From NCBI GenBank assembly GCA_960531495.1, contig OY482846.1, positions 49,852,361 through 49,916,360 of the forward strand: 64,000 nucleotides of DNA. Direction: 5' to 3'. Below, piece after piece: positions 3,239-58,805 of the stretch. The translations under genes were made by a program, and so were the position numbers. Each line of letters starts with the position of its first letter. Position 1 is the stretch's first letter. The notes under the pieces were generated by a model. That model worked only from the letters and a program-made list of their open reading frames with translations. It was not told the DNA's origin and did not search any database. Source of the DNA: Zeus faber. Its lineage: Eukaryota; Chordata; Actinopteri; Zeiformes; Zeidae.

Positions 3239-3387
3239 TCATCTCGACAGCTGTTCATCCACTTCCACTTGGCAGGTGTGGCGCTGGGGCCCAACACGAC
3301 TCGTGTACCGTGACATCAATAAACAACAAGCAGAACAGCGAGCGGCTCGGCTCTGCGCAGCAGGCCAACCATTCTGAGCGGGGCGGA

Positions 3388-4308: not shown

Positions 4309-4464
4309 AAGAAGTGAAATCACGCAGCTTTGAAAGGAGCAGCAACAGTGAAATGTGCTGCACAGTCGATGCCGAAATGAAACGATCAGGAAAGCCAGCG
4401 CTGCGCCGCGCTTGACAAAATCTGGTGTGGGAGCATCATAACAGATGAGAACGTTTGGCTGAGA

Positions 4465-4688
4465 GCCTGCCTGCACGTAGACCTTATAAACAAAAACACA
4501 AGTCTTAAAACTATTCTGTTATAAAATTTGATGGTTACAGAGGAAATGTGAGACAAACACTTTAGGTGAAATAGAGTATTTAATCTGGTACAAGAGGAGC
4601 ATTTACAAAGCAATGACAACAACAACAACAACATGATGTTACCGAGGAAATGGTCAGTTCTGTCGAGACAGCTGAGCCTACTTAAGTT
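4465..4688. repeat. 224-bp array spacer, copy 1 (left founder copy)
   Basis: This is a non-satellite segment running from GCCTGCCTGCACGTAG to CTACTTAAGTT. It is AT-rich, with an ACA-triplet run near 4617-4633. It is preceded by single-copy flank (ggctgagagcctgcctg), whereas copies 2-4 are preceded by satellite, so this is probably the ancestral copy. The first satellite units begin directly at its end (ttaag|ttgttcttacatg). No coding sense was found on either strand. Confidence 0.9.
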
Positions 4689-5757
4689 GTTCTTACATGT
4701 TGTTCTTACATGTTGTTCGTACATATTGTTCTTACATGTTGTTTGAACATGTTGTTCGTACATGTTGTTCGTACATGTTGTTCTTACATGTTGTTTTTAC
4801 ATGTTGTTCGTACATGTTGTTCGTACATGTTGTTCTTATATGTTTTTCTTACATGTTCGTACATGTTGTTCTTGCATGTTGTTCGTACATGTTGTTCTTA
4901 CATGTTGTTCGTACATGTTGTTCTTACATGTTGTTCTTGCATGTTGTTCGTACATGTTCTTCTTACATGTTCTTCTTACATGTTGTTTTTACATGTTTGT
5001 ACATGTTGTTCTTACATGTTGTTTTTACATGTTGTTCTTGCATGTTGTTTTTACATGTTGTTCGTACATGTTCTTCTTACATGTTCTTCTTACATGTTGT
5101 TTTTACATGTTTGTACATGTTGTTTTTACATGTTCTTACATGTTGTTCTTACATGTTGTTTTTACATGTTGTTCGTACATGTTGTTCATACATGTTGTTC
5201 TTACATGTTGTTTTTACATGTTGTTTTTACATGTTGTTCTTACATGTTGTTTTTACATGTTGTTTTTACATGTTGTTTTTACATGTTGTTCTTTCATGTT
5301 GTTCGTACATGTTGTTCTTACATGTTGTTCTTACATGTTGTTTTTACATGTTGTTCTTACATGTTGTTCGTACATGTTGTTCTTACATGTTGTTCTTACA
5401 TGTTGTTCTTACATGTTGTTCTTACATGTTGTTCTTACATGTTGTTTTTACATGTTGTTCTTACATGTTGTTCGTACATGTTGTTCTTACATGTTGTTCT
5501 TACATGTTGTTTTTACATGTTGTTCCAACATGTTTTTACATGTTGTTCTTACATGTTGTTCGTACATGTTGTTCTTACATGTTGTTTTTACATGTTGTTC
5601 TTACATGTTGTTTGTACATGTTGTTCTTACATGTTCTTGCATGTTGTTCTTGCATGTTGTTCTTACATGTTGTTCTTGCATGTTGTTCTTGCATGTTGTT
5701 CTTGCATGTTGTTCTTACATGTTCTTACATGTTGTTTGTACATGTTGGTTCTTACCT

Positions 5758-5981
5758 GCCTGCCTGCACGTAGACCTTATAAACAAAAACACAAGTCTTA
5801 AAACTATTCTGTTATAAAATTTGATGGTTACAGAGGAAATGTGAGACAAACACTTTAGGTGAAATAGAGTATTTAATCTGGTACAAGAGGAGCATTTACA
5901 AAGCAATGACAACAACAACAACAACATGATGTTACCGAGGAAATGGTCAGTTCTGTCGAGACAGCTGAGCCTACTTAAGTT
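5758..5981. repeat. 224-bp array spacer, copy 2
   Basis: This is a same-orientation copy of the spacer at 4465, beginning 1,293 bp after it and embedded in satellite on both sides. By eye it is identical to copy 1. The left junction is satellite (catgttggttcttac) running into CTGCCTGCCTGCACG. Confidence 0.95.
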
Positions 5982-6696
5982 GTTCTTACATGTTGTTCTT
6001 ACATGTTGTTTTTACATGTTGTTCGTACATGTTGTTCGTACATGTTGTTCTTATATGTTTTTCTTACATGTTCGTACATGATGTTCTTAGATGTTGTTTT
6101 TACATGTTGTTCTTGCATGTTGTTCGTACATGTTGTTCTTACATGTTGTTTTTACATGTTGTTCGTACATGTTGTTCTTACATGTTGTTCGTACATGTTG
6201 TTCTTAGATGTTGTTCTTACATGTTGTTCTTGCATGTTGTTCTTGCATGTTGTTCTTGCATGTTGTTCTTACATGTTGTTTTTACATGTTGTTCTTACAT
6301 GTTTTTACATGTTGTTCTTACATGTTGTTCTTACATGTTGTTCTTACATGTTGTTCTTACATGTTGTTCGTACATGTTCTTACATGTTGTTTTTACATGT
6401 TCTTACATGTTGTTCGTACATATTCTTACATGTTGTTTTTACATGTTGTTCCAACATGTTTTTACATGTTGTTCTTACATGTTGTTCGTACATGTTGTTC
6501 TTACATGTTGTTTTTACATGTTGTTCTTACATGTTGTTTGTACATGTTGTTCTTACATGTTCTTGCATGTTGTTCTTGCATGTTGTTCTTGCATGTTGTT
6601 CTTACATGTTGTTCTTGGATGTTGTTCTTGCATGTTGTTCTTGCATGTTGTTCTTACATGTTCTTACATGTTGTTTGTACATGTTGGTTCTTACCT

Positions 6697-6920
6697 GCCT
6701 GCCTGCACGTAGACCTTATAAACAAAAACACAAGTCTTAAAACTATTCTGTTATAAAATTTGATGGTTACAGAGGAAATGTGAGACAAACACTTTAGGTG
6801 AAATAGAGTATTTAATCTGGTACAAGAGGAGCATTTACAAAGCAATGTCAACAACAACAACAACATGATGTTACCGAGGAAATGGTCAGTTCTGTCGAGA
6901 CAGCTGAGCCTACTTAAGTT
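6697..6920. repeat. 224-bp array spacer, copy 3
   Basis: A third copy, 939 bp after copy 2. It differs by one visible base in the run before the ACA triplets (caatgtcaac here, caatgacaac in the others). Confidence 0.95.
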
Positions 6921-8247
6921 GTTCTTACATGTTGTTCTTACATGTTGTTTTTACATGTTGTTCGTACATGTTGTTCGTACATGTTGTTCTTATATGTTTT
7001 TCTTACATGTTCGTACATGTTGTTCTTAGATGTTGTTTTTACATGTTGTTCTTGTATGTTGTTCGTACATGTTGTTCTTACATGTTGTTTTTACATGTTG
7101 TTCGTACATGTTGTTCTTACATGTTGTTCGTACATGTTGTTCTTACATGTTGTTCTTGCATGTTGTTCGTACATGTTCTTCTTACATGTTCTTCTTACAT
7201 GTTGTTTTTACATGTTTGTACATGTTGTTCTTACATGTTGTTTTTACATGTTGTTCTTGCATGTTGTTTTTACATGTTGTTCGTACATGTTCTTCTTACA
7301 TGTTCTTCTTACATGTTGTTTTTACATGTTTGTACATGTTGTTTTTACATGTTCTTACATGTTGTTCTTACATGTTGTTTTTACATGTTGTTCGTACATG
7401 TTGTTCATACATGTTGTTCTTACATGTTGTTTTTACATGTTGTTTTTACATGTTGTTCTTTCATGTTGTTCGTACATGTTGTTCTTACATGTTGTTCTTA
7501 CATGTTGTTTTTACATGTTGTTCTTACATGTTGTTCGTACATGTTGTTCTTACATGTTGTTCTTACATGTTGTTCTTACATGTTGTTCTTACATGTTGTT
7601 CTTACATGTTGTTTTTACATGTTGTTCGTACATGTTGTTCGTACATGTTGTTCTTACATGTTGTTCTTACATGTTGTTTTTACATGTTGTTCTTGCATGT
7701 TGTTCTTGCATGTTGTTTTTACATGTTGTTCTTACATGTTCGTACATGTTGTTCTTAGATGTTGTTCTTAGATGTTGTTCTTACATGTTGTTCTTGCATG
7801 TTGTTCTTGCATGTTGTTCTTGCATGTTGTTCTTACATGTTGTTTTTACATGTTGTTCTTACATGTTTTTACATGTTGTTCTTACATGTTGTTCTTACAT
7901 GTTGTTCTTACATGTTGTTCGTACATGTTCTTACATGTTGTTTTTACATGTTCTTACATGTTGTTCGTACATATTCTTACATGTTGTTTTTACATGTTGT
8001 TCCAACATGTTTTTACATGTTGTTCTTACATGTTGTTCGTACATGTTGTTCTTACATGTTGTTTTTACATGTTGTTCTTACATGTTGTTTGTACATGTTG
8101 TTCTTACATGTTCTTGCATGTTGTTCTTGCATGTTGTTCTTGCATGTTGTTCTTACATGTTGTTCTTGCATGTTGTTCTTGCATGTTGTTCTTGCATGTT
8201 GTTCTTACATGTTCTTACATGTTGTTTGTACATGTTGGTTCTTACCT

Positions 8248-8471
8248 GCCTGCCTGCACGTAGACCTTATAAACAAAAACACAAGTCTTAAAACTATTCT
8301 GTTATAAAATTTGATGGTTACAGAGGAAATGTGAGACAAACACTTTAGGTGAAATAGAGTATTTAATCTGGTACAAGAGGAGCATTTACAAAGCAATGAC
8401 AACAACAACAACAACATGATGTTACCGAGGAAATGGTCAGTTCTGTCGAGACAGCTGAGCCTACTTAAGTT
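8248..8471. repeat. 224-bp array spacer, copy 4
   Basis: The fourth and last copy, 1,551 bp after copy 3. The remaining 41 kb of the array contains no spacer. The same array motifs flank copies 2, 3 and 4, so spacer plus satellite was duplicated as one unit, with different amounts of satellite kept. Confidence 0.95.
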
Positions 8472-11424
8472 GTTCTTACATGTTGTTCTTACATGTTGTT
8501 TTTACATGTTGTTCGTACATGTTGTTCGTACATGTTGTTCTTATATGTTTTTCTTACATGTTCGTACATGTTGTTCTTAGATGTTGTTTTTACATGTTGT
8601 TCTTGCATGTTGTTCGTACATGTTGTTCTTACATGTTGTTTTTACATGTTGTTCGTACATGTTCTTACATGTTGTTCGTACATGTTGTTCTTACATGTTG
8701 TTCTTGCATGTTGTTCGTACATGTTCTTCTTACATGTTCTTCTTACATGTTGTTTTTACATGTTGTTCGTACATGTTCTTCTTACATGTTCTTCTTACAT
8801 GTTGTTTTTACATGTTTGTACATGTTGTTTTTACATGTTCTTACATGTTGTTCTTACATGTTGTTTTTACATGTTGTTCGTACATGTTGTTCGTACATGT
8901 TGTTCTTACATGTTGTTTTTACATGTTGTTTTTACATGTTGTTCTTTCATGTTGTTCGTACATGTTGTTCTTACATGTTGTTCTTACATGTTGTTCTTAC
9001 ATGTTGTTCGTACATGTTGTTCTTACATGTTGTTCTTACATGTTGTTCTTACATGTTGTTCTTACATGTTGTTTTTACATGTTGTTCTTGCATGTTGTTC
9101 TTGCATGTTGTTTTTACATGTTGTTCTTACATGTTCGTACATGTTGTTCTTAGATGTTGTTCTTAGATGTTGTTCTTACATGTTGTTCTTGCATGTTGTT
9201 CTTGCATGTTGTTCTTGCATGTTGTTCTTACATGTTGTTTTTACATGTTGTTCTTACATGTTTTTACATGTTGTTCTTACATGTTTGTCTTACATGTTGT
9301 TCTTACATGTTGTTCGTACATGTTCTTACATGTTGTTTTTACATGTTCTTACATGTTGTTCGTACATATTCTTACATGTTGTTTTTACATGTTGTTCCAA
9401 CATGTTTTTACATGTTGTTCTTACATGTTGTTCGTACATGTTGTTCTTACATGTTGTTTTTACATGTTGTTTTTACATGTTGTTCTTGCATGTTGTTCTT
9501 GCATGTTGTTTTTACATGTTGTTCTTACATGTTCGTACATGTTGTTCTTAGATGTTGTTCTTAGATGTTGTTCTTACATGTTGTTCTTACATGTTGTTCT
9601 TGCATGTTGTTCTTACATGTTGTTTTTACATGTTGTTCTTACATGTTTTTACATGTTGTTCTTACATGTTGTTCGTACATGTTCTTACATGTTGTTTTTA
9701 CATGTTCTTACATGTTGTTCGTACATATTCTTACATGTTGTTTTTACATGTTGTTCCAACATGTTTTTACATGTTGTTCTTACATGTTGTTCGTACATGT
9801 TGTTCTTACATGTTGTTTTTACATGTTGTTTTTACATGTTGTTCTTACATGTTGTTCTTGCATGTTGTTTTTACCATTTGTTCGTACATGTTGTTCTTAC
9901 ATGTTGTTCGTACATGTTGTTCTTACATGTTGTTCTTGCATGTTGTTTTTACATGTTGTTCTTACATGTTCGTACATGTTGTTCTTAGATGTTGTTCTTA
10001 CATGTTGTTCTTACATGTTGTTCTTGCATGTTGTTTTTACATGTTCTTGCATGATGTTCTTGCATGTTGTTCTTGCATTTTGTTCTTACATGTTGTTTTT
10101 ACATGATGTTCGTACATGTTGTTTTTACATGTTGTTTTTACACGTTGTTCTTGCATGTTGTTCTTGCATGTTGTTCTTGCATGTTGTTCTTACATGTTCT
10201 TACATGTTTGTACATGTTGGTTCTTACATGTTGTTCGTACATGTTCTTACATGTTGTTTTTACATGTTCTTACATGTTGTTCTTGCATGTTGTTTTTACA
10301 TGTTCTTGCATGTTGTTCTTACATGTTGTTCTTACATGTTGTTCTTGCATGTTGTTCTTACATGTTGTTCTTACATGTTGTTCTTGCATGTTGTTCTTAC
10401 ATGTTGTTCTTAAATGTTGTTCGTACATGTTGTTCTTGCATGTTGTTCTTGCATGTTGTTCTTGCATGTTGTTCTTGCATGTTATTCTTACATGTTATTC
10501 TTACATGTTGTTCTTACATGTTGCTCTTACATGTTGTTCTTACATGTTGTTCTTGCATGTTGTTCTTGCATGTTGTTCTTGCATGTTATTCTTACATGTT
10601 ATTCTTACATCTTGTTCTTGCATGTTGCTCTTACATGTTGTTCTTGCATGTTGTTATTGCATGTTGTTTTGAAATGTTGTTTTGAAATGTTGTTCTTACA
10701 TGTTGTTCTTGCATGTTGTTTTGAAAAGTTTTGAAATGTTGTTCTTACATGTTTTTACATGTTGTTCTTACATGTTGTTTTTACATGTAGTTTGTACATG
10801 TTGTTTGTACATGTTGTTTGTACATGTTGTTTTTACATGTAGTTTGTACATGTAGTTTGTACATGTAGTTTGTACATGTTTGTACATGCTGTTTTTACAT
10901 GTTGTTCTTACATGTTTTTACATGTTGTTCTTACATGTTGGTCTTACATGTTGTTTTTACATGTTGTTTGTACATATTGTTTTTACATGTTCTTCTTACA
11001 TGTTGTTTTTACATGTTTGTACATGTTGTTCTTACATGTTGTTTTTACATGTTCTTCTTACATGTTTTTACATGTTGTTCTTACATGTTGTTCTTACATG
11101 TTTTTACATGTTGTTTGTACATGTTGTTCTTACATGTTGTTTTTACATGTTCTTCTTACATGTTGTTTTTACATGTTGTTCTTACATGTTGTTCTTACAT
11201 GTTTTTACATGTTGTTCTTGCATGTTGTTTTTACATGTTGTTTGTACATGTTGTTCTTACATGTTCTTACATGTTGTTCTTGCATGTTGTTCTTGCATGT
11301 TGTTCTTACATGTTGTTCTTGCATGTTGTTCTTGCACGTTGCTCTTGCATGTTGTTCTTGCATGTTGTTCTTGCATGTTGTTCTTACATGTTGTTCTTGC
11401 ATGTTGTTCTTGCACGTTGCTCTT

Positions 11425-13951
11425 GCATGTTGTTCTTGCATGTTGTTTTGAAATGTTGTTTTGAAATGTTGTTCTTACATGTTTTTACATGTTGTTCTTA
11501 CATGTTGTTTTTACATGTAGTTTGTACATGTAGTTTGTACATGTTGTTTGTGCATGCTGTTTTTACATGTTGTTCTTACATGTTTTTACATGCTGTTCTT
11601 ACATGTTGGTCTTGCATGTTGTTCTTGCATGTTGTTCTTGCATGTTGTTCTTACATGTTGTTTTTACATGTTGTTCTTACATGTTTTTACATGTTGTTCT
11701 TACATGTTGTTCTTACATGTTGTTCTTACATGTTGTTCTTACATGTTGTTCGTACATGTTCTTACATGTTGTTTTTACATGTTCTTACATGTTGTTCGTA
11801 CATATTCTTACATGTTGTTTTTACATGTTGTTCCAACATGTTTTTACATGTTGTTCTTACATGTTGTTCGTACATGTTGTTCTTACATGTTGTTTTTACA
11901 TGTTGTTTTTACATGTTGTTCTTGCATGTTGTTCTTGCATGTTGTTTTTACATGTTGTTCTTACATGTTCGTACATGTTGTTCTTAGATGTTGTTCTTAG
12001 ATGTTGTTCTTACATGTTGTTCTTACATGTTGTTCTTGCATGTTGTTCTTACATGTTGTTTTTACATGTTGTTCTTACATGTTTTTACATGTTGTTCTTA
12101 CATGTTGTTCGTACATGTTCTTACATGTTGTTTTTACATGTTCTTACATGTTGTTCGTACATATTCTTACATGTTGTTTTTACATGTTGTTCCAACATGT
12201 TTTTACATGTTGTTCTTACATGTTGTTCGTACATGTTGTTCTTACATGTTGTTTTTACATGTTGTTTTTACATGTTGTTCTTACATGTTGTTCTTGCATG
12301 TTGTTTTTACCATTTGTTCGTACATGTTGTTCTTACATGTTGTTCGTACATGTTGTTCTTACATGTTGTTTTTACATGTTGTTTTTACAGGTTCTTACAT
12401 GTTGTTCTTGCATGTTGTTTTTACCATTTGTTCGTACATGTTGTTTTTACATGTTGTTTTTACAGGTTATTACATGTTGTTCTTACATGTTGTTTTTACA
12501 TGTTGTTTTTACATGTTGTTCTTACATGTTGTTCTTGCATGTTGTTTTTACCATTTGTTCGTACATGTTGTTCTTACATGTTGTTCGTACATGTTGTTCT
12601 TACATGTTGTTTTTACATGTTGTTTTTACAGGTTCTTACATGTTGTTCTTGCATGTTGTTTTTACCATTTGTTCGTACATGTTGTTTTTACATGTTGTTT
12701 TTACAGGTTATTACATGTTGTTCTTACATGTTGTTTTTACATGTTGTTTTTACATGTTGTTCTTACATGTTGTTCTTGCATGTTGTTTTGAAATGTTGTT
12801 TTGAAATGTTGTTCTTACATGTTTTTACATGTTGTTCTTACATGTTGTTTTTACATGTAGTTTGTACATGTAGTTTGTACATGTTGTTTGTGCATGCTGT
12901 TTTTACATGTTGTTCTTACATGTTTTTACATGCTGTTCTTACATGTTGGTCTTGCATGTTGTTCTTGCATGTTGTTCTTGCATGTTGTTCTTACATGTTG
13001 TTTTTACATGTTGTTCTTACATGTTTTTACATGTTGTTCTTACATGTTGTTCTTACATGTTGTTCTTACATGTTGTTCTTACATGTTGTTCGTACATGTT
13101 CTTACATGTTGTTTTTACATGTTCTTACATGTTGTTCGTACATATTCTTACATGTTGTTTTTACATGTTGTTCCAACATGTTTTTACATGTTGTTCTTAC
13201 ATGTTGTTCGTACATGTTGTTCTTACATGTTGTTTTTACATGTTGTTTTTACATGTTGTTCTTGCATGTTGTTCTTGCATGTTGTTTTTACATGTTGTTC
13301 TTACATGTTCGTACATGTTGTTCTTAGATGTTGTTCTTAGATGTTGTTCTTACATGTTGTTCTTACATGTTGTTCTTGCATGTTGTTCTTACATGTTGTT
13401 TTTACATGTTGTTCTTACATGTTTTTACATGTTGTTCTTACATGTTGTTCGTACATGTTCTTACATGTTGTTTTTACATGTTCTTACATGTTGTTCGTAC
13501 ATATTCTTACATGTTGTTTTTACATGTTGTTCCAACATGTTTTTACATGTTGTTCTTACATGTTGTTCGTACATGTTGTTCTTACATGTTGTTTTTACAT
13601 GTTGTTTTTACATGTTGTTCTTACATGTTGTTCTTGCATGTTGTTTTTACCATTTGTTCGTACATGTTGTTCTTACATGTTGTTCGTACATGTTGTTCTT
13701 ACATGTTGTTTTTACATGTTGTTTTTACAGGTTCTTACATGTTGTTCTTGCATGTTGTTTTTACCATTTGTTCGTACATGTTGTTTTTACATGTTGTTTT
13801 TACAGGTTATTACATGTTGTTCTTACATGTTGTTTTTACATGTTGTTTTTACATGTTGTTCTTACATGTTGTTCTTGCATGTTGTTTTTACCATTTGTTC
13901 GTACATGTTGTTCTTACATGTTGTTCGTACATGTTGTTCTTACATGTTGTT
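11425..13951 (+). repeat. 1,340-bp higher-order tandem duplication
   Basis: The segment from about 11425 to 12611 repeats at about 12765 to 13951 with an offset of 1,340 bp. In the lines I compared the order of variant units is identical, including TGTTTGTGCATGC, TTCCAACATG, paired TTCTTAGATG and TTTTTACCATTTGTTCG. A smaller 240-bp duplication sits inside it at about 12.25-12.73 kb. The two copies diverge after 12611/13951. This is a recent duplication within the satellite. Confidence 0.85.
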
Positions 13952-17439: not shown

Positions 17440-20400
17440 TTTACATGTTTTTACATTGTTTTAACATGTTCTTACATGTTTTTACATGTTGTTCTTACAT
17501 GTTGTTTTTACATGTTGTTCTTACATGTTGTTCTTACATGTTGTTTGTACATGTTGTTCGTACATGTTGTTCGTACATGTTCTTACATGTTTTTACATGT
17601 TGTTTTTACATGTTGTTCTTACATGTTCTTACATGTTGTTCTTACATGTTGTTCTTACATGTTGTTCGTACATGTTGTTCGTACATGTTGTTCTTACATG
17701 TTGTTCTTACATGTAGTTTGTACATGTAGTTTGTACATGTTGTTCTTACATGTTTTTACATGTTGTTCTTACATGTTGTCCTTACATGTTGTTTGTACAT
17801 GTTTTTACATGTTGTTCTTACATGTTGTCCTTACATGTTGTTTGTACATGTTGTTCTTACATGTTGTTCTTACTTGTTCTTACATGTTGTTCTTACATGT
17901 AGTTTGTACATGTAGTTTGTACATGTTGTTCTTACATGTTTTTACATGTTGTTCTTACATGTTGTTTTTACATGTAGTTTGTACATGTAGTTTTTACATG
18001 TTGTTCTTACATGTTTTTACATGCTGTTCTTACATGTTGGTCTTACATGTTGTTTTTACATGTTGTTTGTACATATTGTTTTTACATGTTCTTCTTACAA
18101 GTTGTTTTTTAATGTTGTTTGTACATGTTGTTCTTACATGTTGTTTTTACATGTTCTTCTTACATGTTGTTTTTACATGTTGTTCTTACATGTTTTTACA
18201 TGTTGTTTTTACATGTTGTTCTTACATGTTCTTACATGTTGTTTTTACATGTTGTTAGTACATGTTGTTCGTACATGTTGTTCTTGCATGTTGTTCGTAC
18301 ATGTTGTTCGTACATGTTGTTCTTACATGTAGTTTGTACATGTAGTTTGTACATGTTGTTTTTACATGTTTTTACATTGTTTTAACATGTTCTTACATGT
18401 TTTTACATGTTGTTCTTACATGTTGTTTTTACATGTTGTTCTTACATGTTGTTCTTACATGTTGTTCTTACATGTTGTTCTTACATGTTGTTTTTACATG
18501 TTGTTTTTAAATGTTGTTCTTACATGTTTTTACATGTTGTTCTTACATGTTTGTACATATTGTTTTTACATGTTGTTCTTACATGTTGTTTTTACATGTT
18601 GTTCTTACATGTTGTTTGACATGTTGTTCGTACATGTTGTTCGTACATGTTGTTCTTGCATGTTGTTCGTACATGTTGTTCGTACATGTTGTTCTTACAT
18701 GTAGTTTGTACATGTAGTTTGTACATGTTGTTTTTACATGTTGTTTTTACATTGTTTTAACATGTTCTTACATGTTTTTACATGTTGTTTTTACATGTTG
18801 TTCTTACATGTTTTTTTTACATGTTGTTCTTACATGTTGTTCTTACATGTTTTTACATGTTGTTTGTACATGTTGTTCTTACATGTTGTTTTTACATGTT
18901 CTTCTTACATGTTGTTTTTACATGTTGTTCTTACATGTTGTTCTTACATGTTGTTCTTGCATGTTGTTCTTACATGTTGTTTGTACATGTTCTTACATGT
19001 TGTTTGTACATGTTGTTCTTACATGTTCTTGCATGTTGTTCTTGCATGTTGTTCTTGCATGTTGTTCTTGCATGTTGCTCTTGCATGTTGCTCTTGCATG
19101 TTGCTCTTGCATGTTGCTCTTACATGTTGTTTTTGCATGTTGTTCTTACATGTTGTTCTTACATGTTGTTCTTACATGTTGTTCTTGCATGTTGTTCTTA
19201 CATGTTATTCTTGCATGTTGGTCTTGCATGTTGTTCTTGCATGTTGCTCTTGCATGTTGCTCTTGCATGTTGTTCTTACATGTTGTTTTGAAATGTTGTT
19301 TTGAAATGTTGTTCTTACATGTTTTTACATGTTGTTCTTACATGTAGTTTGTACATGTAGTTTGTACATGTTGTTCTTACATGTTTTTACATGTTGTTCT
19401 TACATGTTGTTTTTACATGTAGTTTGTACATGTAGTTTTTACATGTTGTTCTTACATGTTTTTACATGCTGTTCTTACATGTTGGTCTTACATGTTGTTT
19501 TTACATGTTGTTTGTACATATTGTTTTTACATGTTCTTCTTACAAGTTGTTTTTTAATGTTGTTTGTACATGTTGTTCTTACATGTTGTTTTTACATGTT
19601 CTTCTTACATGTTGTTTTTACATGTTGTTCTTACATGTTTTTACATGTTGTTTTTACATGTTGTTCTTACATGTTCTTACATGTTGTTTTTACATGTTGT
19701 TAGTACATGTTGTTCGTACATGTTGTTCTTGCATGTTGTTCGTACATGTTGTTCGTACATGTTGTTCTTACATGTAGTTTGTACATGTAGTTTGTACATG
19801 TTGTTTTTACATGTTTTTACATTGTTTTAACATGTTCTTACATGTTTTTACATGTTGTTCTTACATGTTGTTTTTACATGTTGTTCTTACATGTTGTTCT
19901 TACATGTTGTTCTTACATGTTGTTCTTACATGTTGTTTTTACATGTTGTTTTTAAATGTTGTTCTTACATGTTTTTACATGTTGTTTGTACATGTTGTTC
20001 TTACATGTTGTTTTTACATGTTCTTCTTACATGTTGTTTTTACATGTTGTTCTTACATGTTGTTCTTACATGTTGTTCTTGCATGTTGTTCTTACATGTT
20101 GTTTGTACATGTTCTTACATGTTGTTTGTACATGTTGTTCTTACATGTTCTTGCATGTTGTTCTTGCATGTTGTTCTTGCATGTTGTTCTTGCATGTTGC
20201 TCTTGCATGTTGCTCTTGCATGTTGCTCTTGCATGTTGCTCTTACATGTTGTTTTTGCATGTTGTTCTTACATGTTGTTCTTACATGTTGTTCTTACATG
20301 TTGTTCTTGCATGTTGTTCTTACATGTTATTCTTGCATGTTGGTCTTGCATGTTGTTCTTGCATGTTGCTCTTGCATGTTGCTCTTGCATGTTGTTCTTA

Positions 20401-23400
20401 CATGTTGTTTTGAAATGTTGTTTTGAAATGTTGTTCTTACATGTTTTTACATGTTGTTCTTACATGTAGTTTGTACATGTAGTTTGTACATGTTGTTCTT
20501 ACATGTTTTTACATGTTGTTCTTACATGTTGTTTTTACATGTAGTTTGTACATGTAGTTTTTACATGTTGTTCTTACATGTTTTTACATGCTGTTCTTAC
20601 ATGTTGGTCTTACATGTTGTTTTTACATGTTGTTTGTACATATTGTTTTTACATGTTCTTCTTACAAGTTGTTTTTTAATGTTGTTTGTACATGTTGTTC
20701 TTACATGTTGTTTTTACATGTTCTTCTTACATGTTGTTTTTACATGTTGTTCTTACATGTTTTTACATGTTGTTTTTACATGTTGTTCTTACATGTTCTT
20801 ACATGTTGTTTTTACATGTTGTTAGTACATGTTGTTCGTACATGTTGTTCTTGCATGTTGTTCGTACATGTTGTTCGTACATGTTGTTCTTACATGTAGT
20901 TTGTACATGTAGTTTGTACATGTTGTTTTTACATGTTTTTACATTGTTTTAACATGTTCTTACATGTTTTTACATGTTGTTCTTACATGTTGTTTTTACA
21001 TGTTGTTCTTACATGTTGTTCTTACATGTTGTTCTTACATGTTGTTCTTACATGTTGTTTTTACATGTTGTTTTTAAATGTTGTTCTTACATGTTTTTAC
21101 ATGTTGTTCTTACATGTTTGTACATATTGTTTTTACATGTTGTTCTTACATGTTGTTTTTACATGTTGTTCTTACATGTTGTTTGACATGTTGTTCGTAC
21201 ATGTTGTTCGTACATGTTGTTCTTGCATGTTGTTCGTACATGTTGTTCGTACATGTTGTTCTTACATGTAGTTTGTACATGTAGTTTGTACATGTTGTTT
21301 TTACATGTTGTTTTTACATTGTTTTAACATGTTCTTACATGTTTTTACATGTTGTTTTTACATGTTGTTCTTACATGTTTTTTTTACATGTTGTTCTTGC
21401 ATGTTGTTCTTACATGTTATTCTTGCATGTTGGTCTTGCATGTTGTTCTTGCATGTTGCTCTTGCATGTTGCTCTTACATGTTGTTTTTGCATGTTGTTC
21501 TTACATGTTGTTCTTACATGTTGTTCTTACATGTTGTTCTTGCATGTTGTTCTTACATGTTATTCTTGCATGTTGGTCTTGCATGTTGTTCTTGCATGTT
21601 GCTCTTGCATGTTGCTCTTGCATGTTGTTCTTACATGTTGTTTTGAAATGTTGTTTTGAAATGTTGTTCTTACATGTTTTTACATGTTGTTCTTACATGT
21701 TGTTTTTACATGTAGTTTGTACATGTTGTTTGTACATGTTTGTAAATGTTGTTTGTACATGTTTGTACATGTTGTTTTTACATGTAGTTTGTACATGTAG
21801 TTGGTACATGTTGTTTGTACATGCTGTTTTTACATGTTGTTCTTACATGTTTTTACATGCTGTTCTTACATGTTGGTCTTACATGTTGTTTTTACATGTT
21901 GTTTGTACATATTGTTTTTACATGTTCTTCTTACAAGTTGTTTTTTAATGTTGTTTGTACATGTTGTTCTTACATGTTGTTTTTACATGTTCTTCTTACA
22001 TGTTGTTTTTACATGTTGTTCTTACATGTTTTTACATGTTGTTTTTACATGTTGTTCTTACATGTTCTTACATGTTGTTTTTACATGTTGTTCGTACATG
22101 TTGTTCGTACATGTTGTTCTTGCATGTTGTTCTTGCATGTTGTTCGTACATGTTGTTCGTACATGTTGTTCTTACATGTAGTTTGTACATGTAGTTTGTA
22201 CATGTTGTTTTTACATGTTTTTACATTGTTTTAACATGTTCTTACATGTTTTTACATGTTGTTCTTACATGTTGTTTTTACATGTTGTTCTTACATGTTG
22301 TTCTTACATGTTGTTTGTACATGTTGTTCGTACATGTTGTTCGTACATGTTCTTACATGTTTTTACATGTTGTTTTTACATGTTGTTCTTACATGTTCTT
22401 ACATGTTGTTCTTACATGTTGTTCTTACATGTTGTTCGTACATGTTGTTCGTACATGTTGTTCTTACATGTTGTTCTTACATGTAGTTTGTACATGTAGT
22501 TTGTACATGTTGTTCTTACATGTTTTTACATGTTGTTCTTACATGTTGTCCTTACATGTTGTTTGTACATGTTGTTCTTACATGTTGTTCTTACATGTTT
22601 TTACATGTTGTTCTTGCATGTTGTTCTTACATGTTGTTCTTACATGTTGTTCTTACATGTTGTTTTTACATGTAGTTTGTACATGTTGTTTGTACATGTT
22701 TGTAAATGTTGTTTGTACATGTTGTTTTTACATGTAGTTTGTACATGTAGTTTGTACATGTTGTTTGTACATGCTGTTTTTACATGTTGTTCTTACATGT
22801 TTTTACATGCTGTTCTTACATGTTGGTCTTGCATGTTGTTCTTGCATGTTGTTCTTGCGTGTTGTTCTTGCATGTTGCTCTTGCATGTTGCTCTTGCATG
22901 TTGCTCTTGCATGTTGCTCTTGCATGTTGCTCTTACATGTTGTTTTTGCATGTTGTTCTTACATGTTGTTCTTACATGTTGTTCTTACATGTTGTTCTTG
23001 CATGTTGTTCTTACATGTTATTCTTGCATGTTGTTCTTGCATGTTGTTCTTGCATGTTGCTCTTGCAAGTTGCTCTTGCATGTTGTTCTTACATGTTGTT
23101 TTGAAATGTTGTTTTGAAATGTTGTTTTGAAATGTTGTTCTTACATGTTTTTACATGTTGTTCTTACATGTTGTTTTTACATGTAGTTTGTACATGTTGT
23201 TTGTACATGTTTGTAAATGTTGTTTGTACATGTTTGTACATGTTGTTTTTACATGTAGTTTGTACATGTAGTTTGTACATGTTGTTTGTACATGCTGTTT
23301 TTACATGTTGTTCTTACATGTTTTTACATGCTGTTCTTACATGTTGGTCTTACATGTTGTTTTTACATGTTGTTTGTACATATTGTTTTTACATGTTCTT

Positions 23401-26400
23401 CTTACAAGTTGTTTTTTAATGTTGTTTGTACATGTTGTTCTTACATGTTGTTTTTACATGTTCTTCTTACATGTTGTTTTTACATGTTGTTCTTAGATGT
23501 TTTTACATGTTGTTTTTACATGTTGTTCTTACATGTTCTTACATGTTGTTTTTACATGTTGTTCGTACATGTTGTTCGTACATGTTGTTCTTGCATGTTG
23601 TTCTTGCATGTTGTTCGTACATGTTGTTCGTACATGTTGTTCTTACATGTAGTTTGTACATGTAGTTTGTACATGTTGTTTTTACATGTTTTTACATTGT
23701 TTTAACATGTTCTTACATGTTTTTACATGTTGTTCTTACATGTTGTTTTTACATGTTGTTCTTACATGTTGTTCGTACATGTTGTTTGTACATGTTGTTC
23801 GTACATGTTGTTCGTACATGTTCTTACATGTTTTTACATGTTGTTTTTACATGTTGTTCTTACATGTTCTTACATGTTGTTCTTACATGTTGTTCTTACA
23901 TGTTGTTCGTACATGTTGTTCGTACATGTTGTTCTTACATGTTGTTCTTACATGTAGTTTGTACATGTAGTTTGTACATGTTGTTCTTACATGTTTTTAC
24001 ATGTTGTTCTTACATGTTGTCCTTACATGTTGTTTGTACATGTTGTTCTTACATGTTGTTCTTACTTGTTCTTACATGTTGTTCTTACATGTAGTTTTTA
24101 CATGTAGTTTGTACATGTTGTTCTTACATGTTTTTACATGTTGTTCTTACATGTTGTTTTTACATGTAGTTTGTACATGTAGTTTTTACATGTTGTTCTT
24201 ACATGTTTTTACATGCTGTTCTTACATGTTGGTCTTACATGTTGTTTTTACATGTTGTTTGTACATATTGTTTTTACATGTTCTTCTTACAAGTTGTTTT
24301 TTAATGTTGTTTGTACATGTTGTTCTTACATGTTGTTTTTACATGTTCTTCTTACATGTTGTTTTTACATGTTGTTCTTACATGTTTTTACATGTTGTTT
24401 TTACATGTTGTTCTTACATGTTCTTACATGTTGTTTTTACATGTTGTTAGTACATGTTGTTCGTACATGTTGTTCTTGCATGTTGTTCGTACATGTTGTT
24501 CGTACATGTTGTTCTTACATGTAGTTTGTACATGTAGTTTGTACATGTTGTTTTTACATGTTTTTACATTGTTTTAACATGTTCTTACATGTTTTTACAT
24601 GTTGTTCTTACATGTTGTTTTTACATGTTGTTCTTACATGTTGTTCTTACATGTTGTTCTTACATGTTGTTCTTACATGTTGTTTTTACATGTTGTTTTT
24701 AAATGTTGTTCTTACATGTTTTTACATGTTGTTCTTACATGTTTGTACATATTGTTTTTACATGTTGTTCTTACATGTTGTTTTTACATGTTGTTCTTAC
24801 ATGTTGTTTGACATGTTGTTCGTACATGTTGTTCGTACATGTTGTTCTTGCATGTTGTTCGTACATGTTGTTCGTACATGTTGTTCTTACATGTAGTTTG
24901 TACATGTAGTTTGTACATGTTGTTTTTACATGTTGTTTTTACATTGTTTTAACATGTTCTTACATGTTTTTACATGTTGTTTTTACATGTTGTTCTTACA
25001 TGTTTTTTTTACATGTTGTTCTTACATGTTGTTCTTACATGTTTTTACATGTTGTTTGTACATGTTGTTCTTACATGTTGTTTTTACATGTTCTTCTTAC
25101 ATGTTGTTTTTACATGTTGTTCTTACATGTTGTTCTTGCATGTTGTTCTTACATGTTGTTTGTACATGTTCTTACATGTTGTTTGTACATGTTGTTCTTA
25201 CATGTTCTTGCATGTTGTTCTTGCATGTTGTTCTTACATGTTGTTTTTGCATGTTGTTCTTACATGTTGTTCTTACATGTTGTTCTTGCATGTTGCTCTT
25301 GCATGTTGCTCTTGCATGTTGCTCTTGCATGTTGCTCTTACATGTTGTTTTTGCATGTTGTTCTTACATGTTGTTCTTACATGTTGTTCTTACATGTTGT
25401 TCTTGCATGTTGTTCTTACATGTTATTCTTGCATGTTGGTCTTGCATGTTGTTCTTGCATGTTGCTCTTGCATGTTGCTCTTGCATGTTGTTCTTACATG
25501 TTGTTTTGAAATGTTGTTTTGAAATGTTGTTTTGAAATGTTGTTCTTACATGTTTTTACATGTTGTTCTTACATGTTGTTTTTACATGTAGTTTGTACAT
25601 GTTGTTTGTACATGTTTGTAAATGTTGTTTGTACATGTTTGTACATGTTGTTTTTACATGTAGTTTGTACATGTAGTTTGAACATGTTGTTTGTACATGC
25701 TGTTTTTACATGTTGTTCTTACATGTTTTTACATGCTGTTCTTACATGTTGGTCTTACATGTTGTTTTTACATGTTGTTTGTACATATTGTTTTTACATG
25801 TTCTTCTTACAAGTTGTTTTTTAATGTTGTTTGTACATGTTGTTCTTACATGTTGTTTTTACATGTACTTCTTACATGTTGTTTTTACATGTTGTTCTTA
25901 CATGTTTTTACATGTTGTTTTTACATGTTGTTCTTACATGTTCTTACATGTTGTTTTTACATGTTGTTCGTACATGTTGTTCGTACATGTTGTTCTTGCA
26001 TGTTGTTCTTGCATGTTGTTCGTACATGTTGTTCGTACATGTTGTTCTTACATGTAGTTTGTACATGTAGTTTGTACATGTTGTTTTTACATGTTTTTAC
26101 ATTGTTTTAACATGTTCTTACATGTTTTTACATGTTGTTCTTACATGTTGTTTTTACATGTTGTTCTTACATGTTGTTCTTACATGTTGTTTGTACATGT
26201 TGTTCGTACATGTTGTTCGTACATGTTCTTACATGTTTTTACATGTTGTTTTTACATGTTGTTCTTACATGTTCTTACATGTTGTTCTTACATGTTGTTC
26301 TTACATGTTGTTCGTACATGTTGTTCGTACATGTTGTTCTTACATGTTGTTCTTACATGTAGTTTGTACATGTAGTTTGTACATGTTGTTCTTACATGTT

Positions 26401-39400: not shown

Positions 39401-41000
39401 ACATGTTTTTACATGTTCTTACATGTTGTTCTTACATGTTTTTACATGTTGTTCTTGCATGTTGTTCTTACATGTTGTTTGTACATGTTGTTCTTACATG
39501 TTCTTGCATGTTGTTCTTGCATGTTGTTCTTGCATGTTGTTCTTACATGTTGTTCTTGCATGTTGTTCTTGCACGTTGCTCTTGCATGTTGCTCTTGCAT
39601 GTTGTTCTTGCATGTTGTTCTTGCATGTTGTTTTCACATGTTGTTCTTGCATCTTGGTCTTGCATGTTGCTCTTGCATGTTGCTCTTGCATGTTGTTCTT
39701 GCATGTTGTTTTGAAATGTTGTTTTTACATGTTGTTCTTACATGTTGTTTTTACATGTAGTTTGTACATGTTGTTTGTACATGTTTGTAAATGTTGTTTG
39801 TACATGTTTGTTCATGTTGTTTTTACATGTAGTTTGTACATGTAGTTTGTACATGTTGTTTGTACATGCTGTTTTTACATGTTGTTCTCACATGTTTTTA
39901 CATGTTGTTCTTACATGTTTTTACATGTTGTTCTTACATGTTGTTTTTACATGTAGTTTGTACATGTAGTTTGTACATGTTGTTTGTACATGCTGTTTTT
40001 ACATGTTGTTCTTACATGTTTTTACATGCTGTTCTTACATGTTGGTCTTACATGTTGTTTTTACATGTTGTTTGTACATATTGTTTTTACATGTTCTTCT
40101 TACAAGTTGTTTTTACATGTTGTTCTTACATGTTGTTTTTACATGTTCTTCTTACATGTTGTTTTTACATGTTGTTCTTACATGTTTTTACATGTTGTTC
40201 TTACATGTTTTTACATGTTGTTTTTACATGTTGTTCTTACATGTTTTTACATGTTTTTCTTACATGTTGTTCTTACATGTTGTTTGTACATATTGTTTTT
40301 ACATGTTGTTCGTACATGTTGTTCGTACATGTTGTTCTTGCATGTTGTTCGTACATGTTCGTACATGTTGTTCTTACATGTAGTTTGTACATGTAGTTTG
40401 TACATGTTGTTTTTACATGTTGTTTTGAAATGTTGTTCTTGCATGTTGTTTTGAAATGTTGTTTTGAAATGTTGTTCTTACATGTTTTTACATGTTGTTC
40501 TTACATGTTGTTTTTACATGTAGTTTGTACATGTTGTTTGTACATGTTTGTAAATGTTGTTTGTACATGTTTGTACATGTTGTTTTTACATGTAGTTTGT
40601 ACATGTAGTTTTTACATGTTGTTCTTACATGTTTTTACATGCTGTTCTTACATGTTGGTCTTACATATTGTTTTTACATGTTGTTTGTACATATTGTTTT
40701 TACATGTTCTTCTTACAAGTTGTTTTTACATGTTGTTCTTACATGTTGTTTTTACATGTTGTTTTTACATGTTGTTCTTACATGTTTTTACATGTTGTTC
40801 TTACATGTTGTTCTTACATGTTTGTACATATTGTTTTTACATGTTGTTCTTACATGTTGTTTTTACATGTTGTTCTTACATGTTGTTCGTACATGTTGTT
40901 CGTACATGTTGTTCGTACATGTTGTTCTTGCATGTTGTTCGTACATGTTGTTCGTACATGTTGTTCTTACATGTAGTTTGTACATGTAGTTTGTACATGT
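33450..41000 (+). repeat. 4.57-kb higher-order tandem duplication
   Basis: The variant order from about 33.45 to 36.4 kb recurs from about 38.02 to 41.0 kb. The offset is 4,571 bp at the left (TGTGCATGCTG at 33717 and 38288) and 4,601 bp at the right. In one compared stretch the only difference is loss of one TTG triplet. This is the largest adjacent duplication I can see in the array. Confidence 0.8.
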
Positions 41001-43429: not shown

Positions 43430-46400
43430 TACATGTTGTTCTTACATGTTTTTACATGTTGTTCTTACATGTTGTTCTTACATGTTGTTTGTACATGTTG
43501 TTCTTACATGTTGTTCTTACATGTTTTTACATGTTGTTCTTGCATGTTGTTCTTACATGTTGTTCTTGCATGTTGTTTTTACATGTTGTTCTTACATGTT
43601 TTTACATGTTGTTCTTACATTTTGTTCTTACATGTTGTTTTTACATGTTGTTTTTATATGTTGTTCTTACATGTTCTTACATGTTGTTCTTACATGTTGT
43701 TCTTACATGTTGTTTTTACATGTTGTTCTTACATGTTTTTACATGTTGTTCTTACATTTTGTTCTTACATGTTGTTTGTACATTTTGTTCGTACATGTTG
43801 TTCGTACATGTTCTTACATGTTTTTACATGTTGTTTTTACATGTTGTTCTTACATGTTCTTACATGTTGTTCTTACATGTTGTTCGTACATGTTGTTCTT
43901 ACATGTTGTTCTTACATGTAGTTTGTACATCTAGTTTGTACATGTTGTTTTTACATGTTGTTCTTACATGTTTTTACATGTTGTTCTTACATGTTGTTCT
44001 TACATGTTGTTTTTACATGTTGTTCTTACATGTCGTTCTTACATGTTTTTACATGTTGTTCTTGCATGTTGTTCTTACATGTTGTTCTTACATGTTGTTT
44101 TTACATGTTGTTTTTATATGTTGTTCTTACATGTTCTTACATGTTGTTTTTACATGTTGTTCTTACATGTTGTTCTTACATGTTGTTTGTACATTTTGTT
44201 CGTACATGTTGTTCGTACATGTTCTTACATGTTTTTACATGTTGTTTTTACATGTTGTTCTTACATGTTCTTACATGTTGTTCTTACATGTTGTTCTTAC
44301 ATGTTGTTCGTACATGTTGTTCTTACATGTTGTTCTTACATGTAGTTTGTACATGTAGTTTGTACATGTTGTTTTTACATGTTGTTCTTACATGTTTTTA
44401 CATGTTGTTCTTACATGTTGTTCTTACATGTTGTTTGTACATGTTGTTCTTACATGTTGTTCTTACATGTTTTTACATGTTGTTCTTGCATGTTGTTCTT
44501 ACATGTTGTTCTTACATGTTGTTCTTACATGTTGTTTTTATATGTTGTTCTTACATGTTCTTACATGTTGTTCTTACATGTTGTTCTTACATGTTGTTTT
44601 TACATGTTGTTTTTACATGTTGTTCTTACATGTTGTTCTTGCATGTTATTCTTACATGTTATTCTTGCATGTTGCTCTTACATGTTGTTCTTGCATGTTG
44701 TTCTTGCATGTTGTTCTTACATGTTGTTCTTGCATGTTGTTCTTGCATGTTGTTCTTACATGTTGTTTTTACATGTTGTTCTTACATGTTTTTACATGTT
44801 GTTCTTACATGTTGTTCTTACATGTTGTTTGTACATGTTGTTCTTACATGTTGTTCTTACATGTTTTTACATGTTGTTCTTGCATGTTGTTCTTACATGT
44901 TGTTTTTACATGTTGTTTTTATATGTTGTTCTTACATGTTCTTACATGTTGTTCTTACATGTTGTTCTTACATGTTGTTTTTACATGTTGTTCTTACATG
45001 TTTTTACATGTTGTTCTTACATTTTGTTCTTACATGTTGTTTGTACATTTTGTTCGTACATGTTGTTCGTACATGTTCTTACATGTTTTTACATGTTGTT
45101 TTTACATGTTGTTCTTACATGTTCTTACATGTTGTTCTTACATGTTGTTCTTACATGTTGTTCGTACATGTTGTTCTTACATGTTGTTCTTACATGTAGT
45201 TTGTACATGTAGTTTGTACATGTTGTTTTTACATGTTGTTCTTACATGTTTTTACATGTTGTTCTTACATGTTGTTCTTACATGTTGTTTGTACATGTTG
45301 TTCTTACATGTCGTTCTTACATGTTTTTACATGTTGTTCTTGCATGTTGTTCTTACATGTTGTTCTTGCATGTTGTTCTTACATGTTGTTCTTACATGTT
45401 GTTCTTACATGTTGTTTTTACATGTTGTTTTTATATGTTGTTCTTACATGTTCTTACATGTTGTTTTTACATGTTGTTCTTACATGTTGTTTGTACATTT
45501 TGTTCGTACATGTTGTTCGTACATGTTCTTACATGTTTTTACATGTTGTTCTTACATGTTCTTACATGTTGTTCTTACATGTTGTTCTTACATGTTGTTC
45601 GTACATGTTGTTCTTACATGTTGTTCTTACATGTAGTTTGTACATGTAGTTTGTACATGTTGTTTTTACATGTTGTTCTTACATGTTTTTACATGTTGTT
45701 CTTACATGTTGTTCTTACATGTTGTTTGTACATGTTGTTCTTACATGTTGTTCTTACATGTTTTTACATGTTGTTCTTGCATGTTGTTCTTACATGTTGT
45801 TCTTACATGTTGTTCTTACATGTTGTTTTTACATGTTGTTTTTATATGTTGTTCTTACATGTTCTTACATGTTGTTTTTACATGTTGTTTTTACATGTTG
45901 CTCTTACATGTTGTTCTTACATGTTTTTACATGATGTTCTTACATGTTCTTACATGTTGTTCTTACATGTTGTTCTTACATGTTGTTTTTACATGTTGTT
46001 CTTACATGTTTTTACATGTTGTTCTTACATTTTGTTCTTACATGTTGTTTGTACATTTTGTTCGTACATGTTGTTCGTACATGTTCTTACATGTTTTTAC
46101 ATGTTGTTTTTACATGTTGTTCTTATATGTTCTTACATGTTGTTCTTACATGTTGTTCTTACATGTTGTTCGTACATGTTGTTCTTACATGTTGTTCTTA
46201 AATGTAGTTTGTACATGTTGTTTGTACATGTTGTTCTTACATATCGTTCTTACATGTTTTTACATGTTGTTCTTGCATGTTGTTCTTACATGTTGTTCTT
46301 ACATGTTTTTACATGTTGTTCTTACATTTTGTTCTTACATGTTGTTTGTACATTTTGTTCGTACATGTTGTTCGTACATGTTCTTACATGTTTTTACATG

Positions 46401-48500
46401 TTGTTTTTACATGTTGTTCTTACATGTTCTTACATGTTGTTCTTACATGTTGTTCTTACATGTTGTTCGTACATGTTGTTCTTACATGTTGTTCTTACAT
46501 GTAGTTTGTACATGTAGTTTGTACATGTTGTTTTTACATGTTGTTCTTACATGTTTTTACATGTTGTTCTTACATGTTGTTCTTACATGTTGTTTGTACA
46601 TGTTGTTCTTACATGTCGTTCTTACATGTTTTTACATGTTGTTCTTGCATGTTGTTCTTACATGTTGTTCTTACATGTTGTTCTCACATGTTGTTTTTAC
46701 ATGTTGTTTTTATATGTTGTTCTTACATGTTCTTACATGTTGTTTTTACATGTTGTTCTTACATGTTGTTCTTACATGTTGTTTGTACATTTTGTTCGTA
46801 CATTTTGTTCGTACATGTTCTTACATGTTTTTACATGTTGTTCTTACATGTTGTTCTTACATGTTGTTCGTACATGTTGTTCTTACATGTTGTTCTTACA
46901 TGTAGTTTGTACATGTTGTTCTTACATGTTTTTACATGTTGTTCTTACATGTTGTTCTTACATGTTGTTTGTACATGTTGTTCTTACATGTTGTTCTTAC
47001 ATGTTTTTACATGTTGTTCTTGCATGTTGTTCTTACATGTTGTTCTTACATGTTGTTCTTACATGTTGTTTTTACATGTTGTTTTTATATGTTGTTCTTA
47101 CATGTTCTTACATGTTGTTCTTACATGTTGTTCTTACATGTTGTTTTTACATGTTGTTTTTACATGTTGTTCTTACATGTTGTTTTTGCATGTTATTCTT
47201 ACATGTTATTCTTGCATGTTGCTCTTACATGTTGTTCTTGCATGTTGTTCTTGCATGTTGTTCTTACATGTTGTTCTTGCATGTTGTTCTTGCATGTTGT
47301 TCTTACATGTTGTTTTTACATGTTGTTCTTACATGTTTTTACATGTTGTTCTTACATGTTGTTCTTACATGTTGTTTGTACATGTTGTTCTTACATGTTG
47401 TTCTTACATGTTTTTACATGTTGTTCTTGCATGTTGTTCTTACATGTTGTTCTTACATGTTGTTTTTACATGTTGTTTTTATATGTTGTTCTTACATGTT
47501 CTTACATGTTGTTCTTACATGTTGTTCTTACATGTTGTTTTTACATGTTGTTCTTACATGTTTTTACATGTTGTTCTTACATTTTGTTCTTACATGTTGT
47601 TTGTACATTTTGTTCGTACATGTTGTTCGTACATGTTCTTACATGTTTTTACATGTTGTTTTTACATGTTGTTCTTACATGTTCTTACATGTTGTTCTTA
47701 CATGTTGTTCTTACATGTTGTTCGTACATGTTGTTCTTACATGTTGTTCTTACATGTAGTTTGTACATGTAGTTTGTACATGTTGTTTTTACATGTTGTT
47801 CTTACATGTTTTTACATGTTGTTCTTACATGTTGTTCTTACATGTTGTTTGTACATGTTGTTCTTACATATCGTTCTTACATGTTTTTACATGTTGTTCT
47901 TGCATGTTGTTCTTACATGTTGTTCTTACATGTTGTTCTTACATGTTGTTTTTATATGTTGTTCTTACATGTTGTTCTTACATGTTGTTTTTACATGTTG
48001 TTCTTACATGTTGTTCTTACATGTTGTTTGTACATTTTGTTCGTACATGTTGTTCGTACATGTTCTTACATGTTTTTACATGTTGTTTTTACATGTTGTT
48101 CTTACATGTTCTTACATGTTGTTCTTACATGTTGTTCTTACATGTTGTTCGTACATGTTGTTCTTACATGTTGTTCTTACATGTAGTTTGTACATGTAGT
48201 TTGTACATGTTGTTTTTACATGTTGTTCTTACATGTTTTTACATGTTGTTCTTACATGTTGTTCTTACATGGTGTTTGTACATGTTGTTCTTACATGTTG
48301 TTCTTACATGTTTTTACATGTTGTTCTTGCATGTTGTTCTTACATGTTGTTCTTACATGTTGTTCTTACATGTTGTTTTTACATGTTTTTATATGTTGTT
48401 CTTACATGTTCTTACATGTTGTTCTTACATGTTGTTCTTACATGTTGTTTTTACATGTTGTTCTTGCATGTTGTTCTTACATGTTGTTTTGAAATGTTGT
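43430..48500 (+). repeat. About 0.43-kb higher-order repeat zone
   Basis: The same series of variants starts near 43446, 43968, 44392, 45246, 45683, 46551, 47806 and 48233. Several steps are 424-437 bp (33 units of 13 bp would be 429) and others are about twice that. Private markers of this zone are TTTTTATATG and GTACATTTTGTTCG. A larger copy of about 2.56 kb (for example 45212 versus 47772) overlies it. Confidence 0.8.
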
Positions 48501-48971
48501 TCCATGTTGTTCTTACATGTTGTTTTTACATGTAGTTTGTACATGTAGTTTGTAGATGTTGTTTGTACATGCTGTTTTTACATGTTGTTCTTACATGTTG
48601 TTCTTACATGTTGTTTTTACATGTTTGTACATATTGTTTTTACATGTTTTTACATGTTCTTCTTACATGTTCTTCTTACATGTTGTTTTTACATGTTTGT
48701 ACATGTTGTTCTTACATGTTGTTTTTACATGTTGTTTTTACATGTTGTTCTTGCATGTTGTTCTTGCATGTTGTTCTTACATGTTGTTCTTACATGTTGT
48801 TCTTACATGTTGTTCTTACATGTTGTTCGTACATGTTGTTCGTACATGTTCTTACATGTTGTTCGTACATGTTCTTACATGTTGTTTGTACATGTTGTTC
48901 TACATGTTGTTCTTACATGTAGTTTGTACATGTAGTTTGTACATGTTGTTTTTACATGTTGTTTTTACATT

Positions 48972-49059
48972 CAAGAGATTCAAGATTCAAGATTCAAGAT
49001 TTTTTATTTGTCACATACATATACATACTTCCATACATATATGCAGTGAAATGTAATGA
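48972..49059. mobile_element. 88-bp short interspersed insertion inside the array
   Basis: A non-satellite segment starts with repeated TTCAAGA motifs, continues through TTTTTTATTTGTCACATAC and ends in GCAGTGAAATGTAATGA. It interrupts the array marker ACATTGTTTTAACATG and is flanked by the 5-bp duplication ACATT (48967-48971 and 49060-49064). A closely similar copy lies at 56367-56448. The family is not identified; similar TTCAAGATT...GCAGTGAAATG strings are widespread in fish genomes. Confidence 0.75.
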
Positions 49060-50058
49060 ACATTGTTTTAACATGTTCTTACATGTTTTTACATGTTGTT
49101 CTTACATGTTGTTTTTACATGTTGTTCTTACATGTTGTTCTTACATGTTCGTACATGTTGTTCATACATGTTCTTACATGTTGTTTTTACATGTTGTTCT
49201 TACATGTTGTTTTTACATGTTGTTCTTACATGTTCTTACATGTTGTTCTTACATGTTGTTTTTACATGTTGCTCTTGCATGTTGTTCTTACATGTTGTTC
49301 GTACATGTTGTTTTTACATGTAGTTTGTACATGTAGTTTGCACATGTAGTTTTTACATGTTGTTCTTACATGTTTTTACATGTTGTTCTTACATGTTGTT
49401 CTTACATGTTGTTTTTACATTGTTTTAACATGTTGTTCTTACATGTTTTTACATGTTGTTCTTACATGTTGTTTTTACATGTTGTTCTTACATGTTGTTC
49501 TTACATGTTGTTTGTACATGTTGTTCTTACATGTTGTTCTTACATGTTTTTACATGTTGTTCTTGCATGTTGTTCTTACATGTTGTTTTTACATGTTGTT
49601 CTTACATGTTGTTTTTACATGTTGTTCTTACATGTTCTTACATTTTGTTCTTGCATCTTGTTCTTGCATGTTGTTCTTGCATGTTATTCTTACATGTTAT
49701 TCTTGCATGTTGCTCTTACATGTTGTTCTTGCATGTTGTTCTTACATGTTGTTCTTGCATGTTGTTCTTACATGTTGTTCTTGCATGTTGTTCTTACATG
49801 TTGTTTTGAAATGTTGTTCCATGTTGTTCTTACATGTTGTTTTTACATGTAGTTTGTACATGTAGTTTGTACATGTTGTTTGTACATGCTGTTTTTACAT
49901 GTTGTTCTTACATGTTTTTACATGTTGTTTGTACATATTGTTTTTACATGTTTTTACATGTTGTTTTTACATGTTCTTCTTACATGTTCTTCTTACATGT
50001 TGTTTTTACATGTTTGTACATGTTGTTCTTACATGTTGTTTTTACATGTTCTTCTTAC

Positions 50059-50889: not shown

Positions 50890-50939
50890 ATCTAGGTGAC
50901 TGGGATCAGAGTGGCTGCATACATTTTGTTCATTGATTG

Positions 50940-58775: not shown

Positions 58776-58805
58776 AGAGTTAAGTGAGAGAAAGAAAACA
58801 GTTAC

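Follow-up and report, generated by a model that had tools for sequence, protein, structure and literature searches.

A single-locus 45-kb satellite of Zeus faber, probably grown from a short tandem repeat in a retrotransposon LTR

Introduction

Satellites usually occur without a visible ancestor. A long array of a 13-bp unit in the genome of Zeus faber raises the question of where such DNA came from and by which events it reached its present length. The stretch of DNA analysed here, referred to as the window, comprises 64,000 nucleotides (positions 49852361-49916360 of contig C2) in a genome assembly of 803 Mb and 153 contigs. Between the array and the end of the 52.95-Mb contig there are about 3.0 Mb.

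Structure and Genomic Place of the Array

The satellite array extends from 4681 to 50058 on the forward strand and is built of the unit TTCTTACATGTTG together with shorter and longer variants. Rather than repeating one 13-mer uniformly, it alternates between 10-bp and 13-bp words, with 36-bp variants among them. An earlier interpretation made from the letters alone, the sequence-only reading, had described a single-orientation 13-bp array of about 45 kb, sharply edged on both sides and filling 71% of the window, and this description is borne out in all of these respects. TRF calls the array at 4686-50058, with a period of 13, 3610.8 copies and 83% matches, and the array occupies 45,378 of the 64,000 bases. 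The exact unit is found 810 times in the window in forward orientation and never in reverse; when the rotations of the unit are pooled, 12,158 forward positions and no reverse position are counted. Since the window consists of A, C, G and T only, with no N, the array is gapless.

Long open frames run through the array on the plus strand. They are explained by a repeat that has no stop codons in that direction, and they are not counted as genes here. A search of Rfam for RNA genes gave 0 matches at gathering thresholds.

The satellite is seen at a single locus in the assembly, from which centromeres may be absent. All 192 genome-wide copies of the exact 26-base unit dimer are inside the window. 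When up to 3 mismatches are allowed, the 803 Mb hold 2,186 dimer matches (2,185 forward and 1 reverse), with 2,181 forward and 0 reverse in the window, and the same 26-mer read backwards, used as a control over the same 803 Mb, gave 0 matches. The four forward matches and one reverse match outside the window are accounted for by copies of a long terminal repeat (LTR) described below: in number and strand, these five equal the dimer matches in the loci L024, L025, L026, L032 and L030, of which L032 and L025 were also placed by the genome listing and the other three were inferred from the counts.

The unit was not found described as a satellite in a full-text search with its 11-mers on both strands and a second term required, and within that search the earlier statement that no named satellite has this unit holds. 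One 11-mer text match, in PMC3873399, was discarded, as the relevant portion of that article gives a zebrafish primer and no satellite description.

The Borders of the Array

The array had also been said to be bordered by single-copy DNA, and this proved wrong on both sides: a dispersed LTR fragment adjoins it on the left and a dispersed repeat, family B, on the right. The left fragment belongs to family A and occupies 4505..4684 on the minus strand, where it is broken off at the start of the array. With positions 4441-4690 as query, 36 of the 40 matches listed are outside the window (best 40 of 264 candidates scored), and the family A copy of the window is 74-81% identical to the others listed. 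Moreover, the left edge is not single-copy even within the window. A border block of 226 bp (4465..4690) recurs three times inside the array on the plus strand, at 5758..5983, 6697..6922 and 8248..8473, with identities of 100, 100 and 99.6% over the 226 bp. These inner copies indicate that growth of the array moved flanking DNA inward.

The right border is formed by a family B copy at 50058..50894 on the plus strand, the 5' part of which is missing at the array edge. Family B gave 45 match pieces, 44 of them elsewhere (best 40 of 2,966 candidates scored). Four of the five copies examined have about 118-124 bp of extra upstream sequence in common, and the fifth has 30-44 bp; this extra stretch is absent from the window copy. 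The ends of family B resemble those of hAT-type transposons, and it may be one of them; a 68-aa piece of it had no Pfam match. The family A copy and the family B copy are thus both truncated at the array. Additionally, ACTTAA is present at both array edges (4680..4685 and 50057-50062), which may represent microhomology or a short duplication.

Family A Is the LTR of a Retrotransposon

Family A is a dispersed element of about 460 bp. One copy of this left-border family was used as a query, which yielded 50 match pieces (best 40 of 378 candidates scored). Thirty loci were retrieved, and they match the query at 71-89%, with the query copy itself at 100%. The copies begin with TGTTAAA and finish in a TTATAACA-like sequence, and their ends are of the TG...CA type. 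In pattern searches, a PBS-like sequence was found after the LTR in 7 of the 30 loci and a polypurine tract in 4 of the 30. Two of the copies, L025 and L026, share one orientation at a distance of 4.2 kb, and the interior between them begins with a PBS-like sequence and ends with a polypurine one. Five of the 15 interior ORFs were searched and returned zf-CCHC, RVT_1, RNase_H and Chromo, with the order RVT_1, RNase_H, Chromo between the two LTRs; no integrase core was found in these 5 ORF pieces (15 listed, 8 on the strand of the element). The occurrence of a PBS, a polypurine tract and reverse transcriptase, RNase H and chromodomain sequences between two copies identifies family A as an LTR. 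Its owner is presumably a chromodomain-bearing element of Ty3/Gypsy type (a chromovirus), a name based on the order of the domains. Four of the LTR loci (L042-L045), located on four contigs, are near-identical including their flanks, which suggests duplicated or redundant contigs.

A Seed of the Satellite Within the LTR

Words resembling the satellite occur in the LTR copies on the same strand, in a stretch that lies downstream of the portion matching the left border of the window. With as many as 4 mismatches allowed, the seed GTACATGTTGTTCTTGCA is present in 29 of the 30 LTR loci, and 16 of the 30 contain the exact sequence TACATGTTGTTCT. The word ACATGTTGTTC, with up to 2 mismatches, is paired at 13-bp spacing in 16 of the 30 loci, a count that has no random control and that becomes 13 of 27 when the near-identical L042-L045 group is counted once. 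Exact matches of 19 bp between the LTR seed and the array are found at many array places, again on the same strand. Both landmarks of the seed region are present in 24 of the 30 copies, where the length of the region ranges between 136 and 253 bp, and this variation implies that the stretch is unstable in the LTR copies too. In the window the LTR fragment stops where the array begins, and in the other copies the seed follows downstream on the same strand. In effect, the unit exists as a short tandem repeat in dispersed copies, and the array is joined to the element in matching orientation, two features that speak for a satellite derived from an LTR.

The reading that we favour, with a probability of roughly 0.8, is that this single-locus satellite grew from a short tandem repeat in the LTR of a chromodomain-bearing Ty3/Gypsy-type retrotransposon. 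Because the dimer matches outside the window are all accounted for by LTR copies, the LTR-internal dimer is the most likely source. The first step would have been slippage or unequal exchange, by which the 13-bp dimer of one LTR copy became a small array. If so, the seed, the completed array and the traces of how it grew, namely nested duplications and border blocks carried inward, coexist in one genome, and the birth of a satellite can be traced there stepwise.

Several observations complicate this origin. The LTR copy of the window lacks the stretch of about 60-130 bp (estimated by eye) that elsewhere separates the matching part from the first seed, which means that the exact seed of the array has been lost. 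The distal LTR end had no copy among the best 40 matches of the window comparison, and together with the unrelated repeat at the right border this indicates that a single LTR does not simply enclose the array. An intermediate array of tens of units was not found either: a 50-base repeat pattern of the LTR, searched for with as many as 3 mismatches allowed, matched once, within an LTR copy, and a second expanded array was rejected on this result.

The opposite direction, in which the satellite is the older of the two and one or two of its units were captured by an LTR retrotransposon and spread with it, is unlikely. A unit common to array and LTR would be expected in either direction, and such capture is named for plant elements in passages of PMC7004042. 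However, the seed occupies the same place in 29 of 30 LTR loci that match the query at only 71-89%, and its constant position in diverged copies suggests that it is old in the family. Additionally, the long array exists at one locus only and much of it is near-identical, which also argues against a satellite older than the element.

Satellites derived from LTR retrotransposons are already known as a kind, and the derivation from an LTR favoured here places the present array among them, with its seed in the LTR itself and a unit of 13 bp. In Lathyrus sativus, according to parts of PMC7004042, satellites (FabTR families, Ogre elements) arose from short tandem arrays in LTR retrotransposons, and both directions, from element to satellite and the reverse, are discussed there. 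The resemblance is that element-internal short tandem repeats gave rise to long local arrays and the element is still dispersed. The difference, as far as those parts of PMC7004042 go, is that the Lathyrus sativus seeds are located downstream of gag-pol and gave nine satellites, whereas here the seed is in the LTR, the unit has 13 bp and one locus is involved. A further likeness is to maize, in which tandem repeats are derived from Ty3/Gypsy elements, as stated in portions of PMC3648361; the same portions trace the maize repeats to centromeric retrotransposons, whereas the array described here is known only as a single locus about 3.0 Mb from a contig end.

Growth of the Array

Larger duplications compose the array, with lags of, for example, 939, 1122, 1340, 1551 and 4601 bp, and these long-range lags point to nested direct duplications. 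The array has 811 pairs of maximal exact repeats that are 100 bp or longer. The longest, of 1,186 bp, begins at 11426 and 12766 (lag 1340) and marks a young segmental duplication at 11426..13951 on the plus strand. The most homogenised part (17880..25137, plus strand) contains exact repeats of 1,153 bp (18834/19956) and 1,039 bp (17907/24099). When the array is divided into 300-bp windows, 53% of them have an ungapped partner that is at least 97% identical and 24% have an identical one. Mean partner identity reaches 1.00 in the bin from 18181 and only 0.81 in the bin from 48181, which suggests that the middle is young and the right end older.

The older right part also harbours an insertion of a young dispersed element, family C, at about 48971..49058 on the plus strand, apparently flanked by ACATT. 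Family C is about 88 bp long, and its copies are 94-100% identical among the 40 matches listed (best 40 of 675 candidates scored). The target-like sequence of this insertion occurs unoccupied at 19 other places of the array. A second copy of the 88-bp element is found in the right flank at about 56370-56450.

Under the origin from an LTR seed, the small array would have been enlarged in a second step through duplication of blocks about 1-5 kb long; such duplications are observed, and unequal exchange or a similar process is the probable cause. The latest of them would have affected the middle and the left border, with the right end older. Three duplications took the LTR border along, nearly unchanged. 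The likeliest role of the array is none, that is, a neutrally or selfishly expanded array.

The length of the array, its homogenised centre and its diverged right end are also general satellite behaviour and would suit an ordinary centromeric or sex-chromosomal satellite that lies beside transposon debris by chance. This explanation is improbable. The arguments against it, which are weak in an assembly that may omit centromeres, are that the array is found at one locus only and that it is placed about 3.0 Mb from the contig end and less than 3 kb from a C2H2 zinc-finger coding sequence.

A Steroid-Receptor-Like Motif in the Unit

The content of the unit allows a further reading, in which a hormone-responsive enhancer word of the LTR would have been amplified into a 45-kb array of about a thousand receptor-like sites, making the array a putative cluster of steroid-receptor sites (androgen, glucocorticoid, progesterone, mineralocorticoid). 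We consider this rather doubtful, a long shot suggested by motif resemblance. Read on the minus strand, a typical unit is AGAACA-ACA-TGTAAG or -TGTACG. The motif AGAACAnnnTGT occurs 1,030 times in the array, always on that strand, and is absent from the 18,380 flanking bases; it was contained on either strand in 66 of 200,000 shuffled 13-mers. Sites resembling RGWACAnnnTGTWCY with up to 2 mismatches reach 28.3 per kb in the array versus 0.60 per kb outside, a density attained by 14 of 20,000 shuffled units; however, the motif was picked post hoc, and the shuffles therefore understate chance.

Some external data are consistent with receptor recognition. In mouse Defb41, a predicted androgen response element agrees with the unit over 14 consecutive bases, spacer included, and is part of a receptor-bound region supported by ChIP, according to sections of PMC4127520. 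Excerpts of PMC3985627 give the first hexamer AGAACA and a G at position 11 as most important for the androgen receptor, with a T at position 12 needed in addition by the other class I receptors; the unit has AGAACA, G11 and T12.

A class I response element has inverted AGAACA hexamers with a 3-bp spacer, and the 1,030 sites contain the first hexamer plus the TGT of the second. Against the reading, the full palindrome AGAACAnnnTGTTC occurs once. Among array hexamers, 974 TGTTTT stand beside 1,602 TGTTCT, and many units have no motif. Moreover, the LTR family gives no sign of constraint on the motif in a conservation test based on 27 roughly aligned rows, of which three have long extra sequence: conservation of the motif window is 0.788 versus a median of 0.835, and 323 of 455 windows are better conserved.

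If the reading were true, androgen or glucocorticoid receptor could be recruited to the array, or titrated by it, within the nucleus, and hormone or stress could start transcription of the satellite, as is comparable with human satellite 3 and HSF1. A real resemblance would make the satellite a hormone-responsive chromatin platform. The likeness to satellite 3, as described in part of PMC10813801, would be in recognition-like elements for a stress-activated transcription factor; there HSF1 binding is experimental, whereas here the likeness to receptor sites is one of sequence. Among the papers listed in literature searches, none describes a receptor-binding satellite in its title or abstract opening.

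Assembly and Neighbouring Sequences

That the length of the array is an assembly artefact, produced by exact internal repeats of up to 1,186 bp that could mislead assemblers given short or noisy reads, is very improbable in a window without N, in which many copies differ from each other, making long accurate reads placeable, and in which the transposon insertion and the three border copies serve as internal landmarks.

The neighbourhood of the array includes further repeats and coding sequences. On the left, a separate 38-bp tandem repeat occupies 3387-3757, with 9.8 copies at 95%. Near the right border, the minus strand has a C2H2 zinc-finger coding sequence at 52591-53547, in which a tandem period of 84 bp is seen. 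It is followed by two similar acidic open frames, also on the minus strand (55898-56386 and 58783-59298), which have common stretches with HIKEE...PVK. These two frames had no Pfam match and are possibly N-terminal parts of zinc-finger genes. At the ends of contig C2, the start (L056 1-5000) consists of more than 5 kb of GAAAGATT-like repeat, and the end (L055 1151-4960) carries degenerate TTAGGG-like repeats and a 318-bp tandem repeat at 99%.
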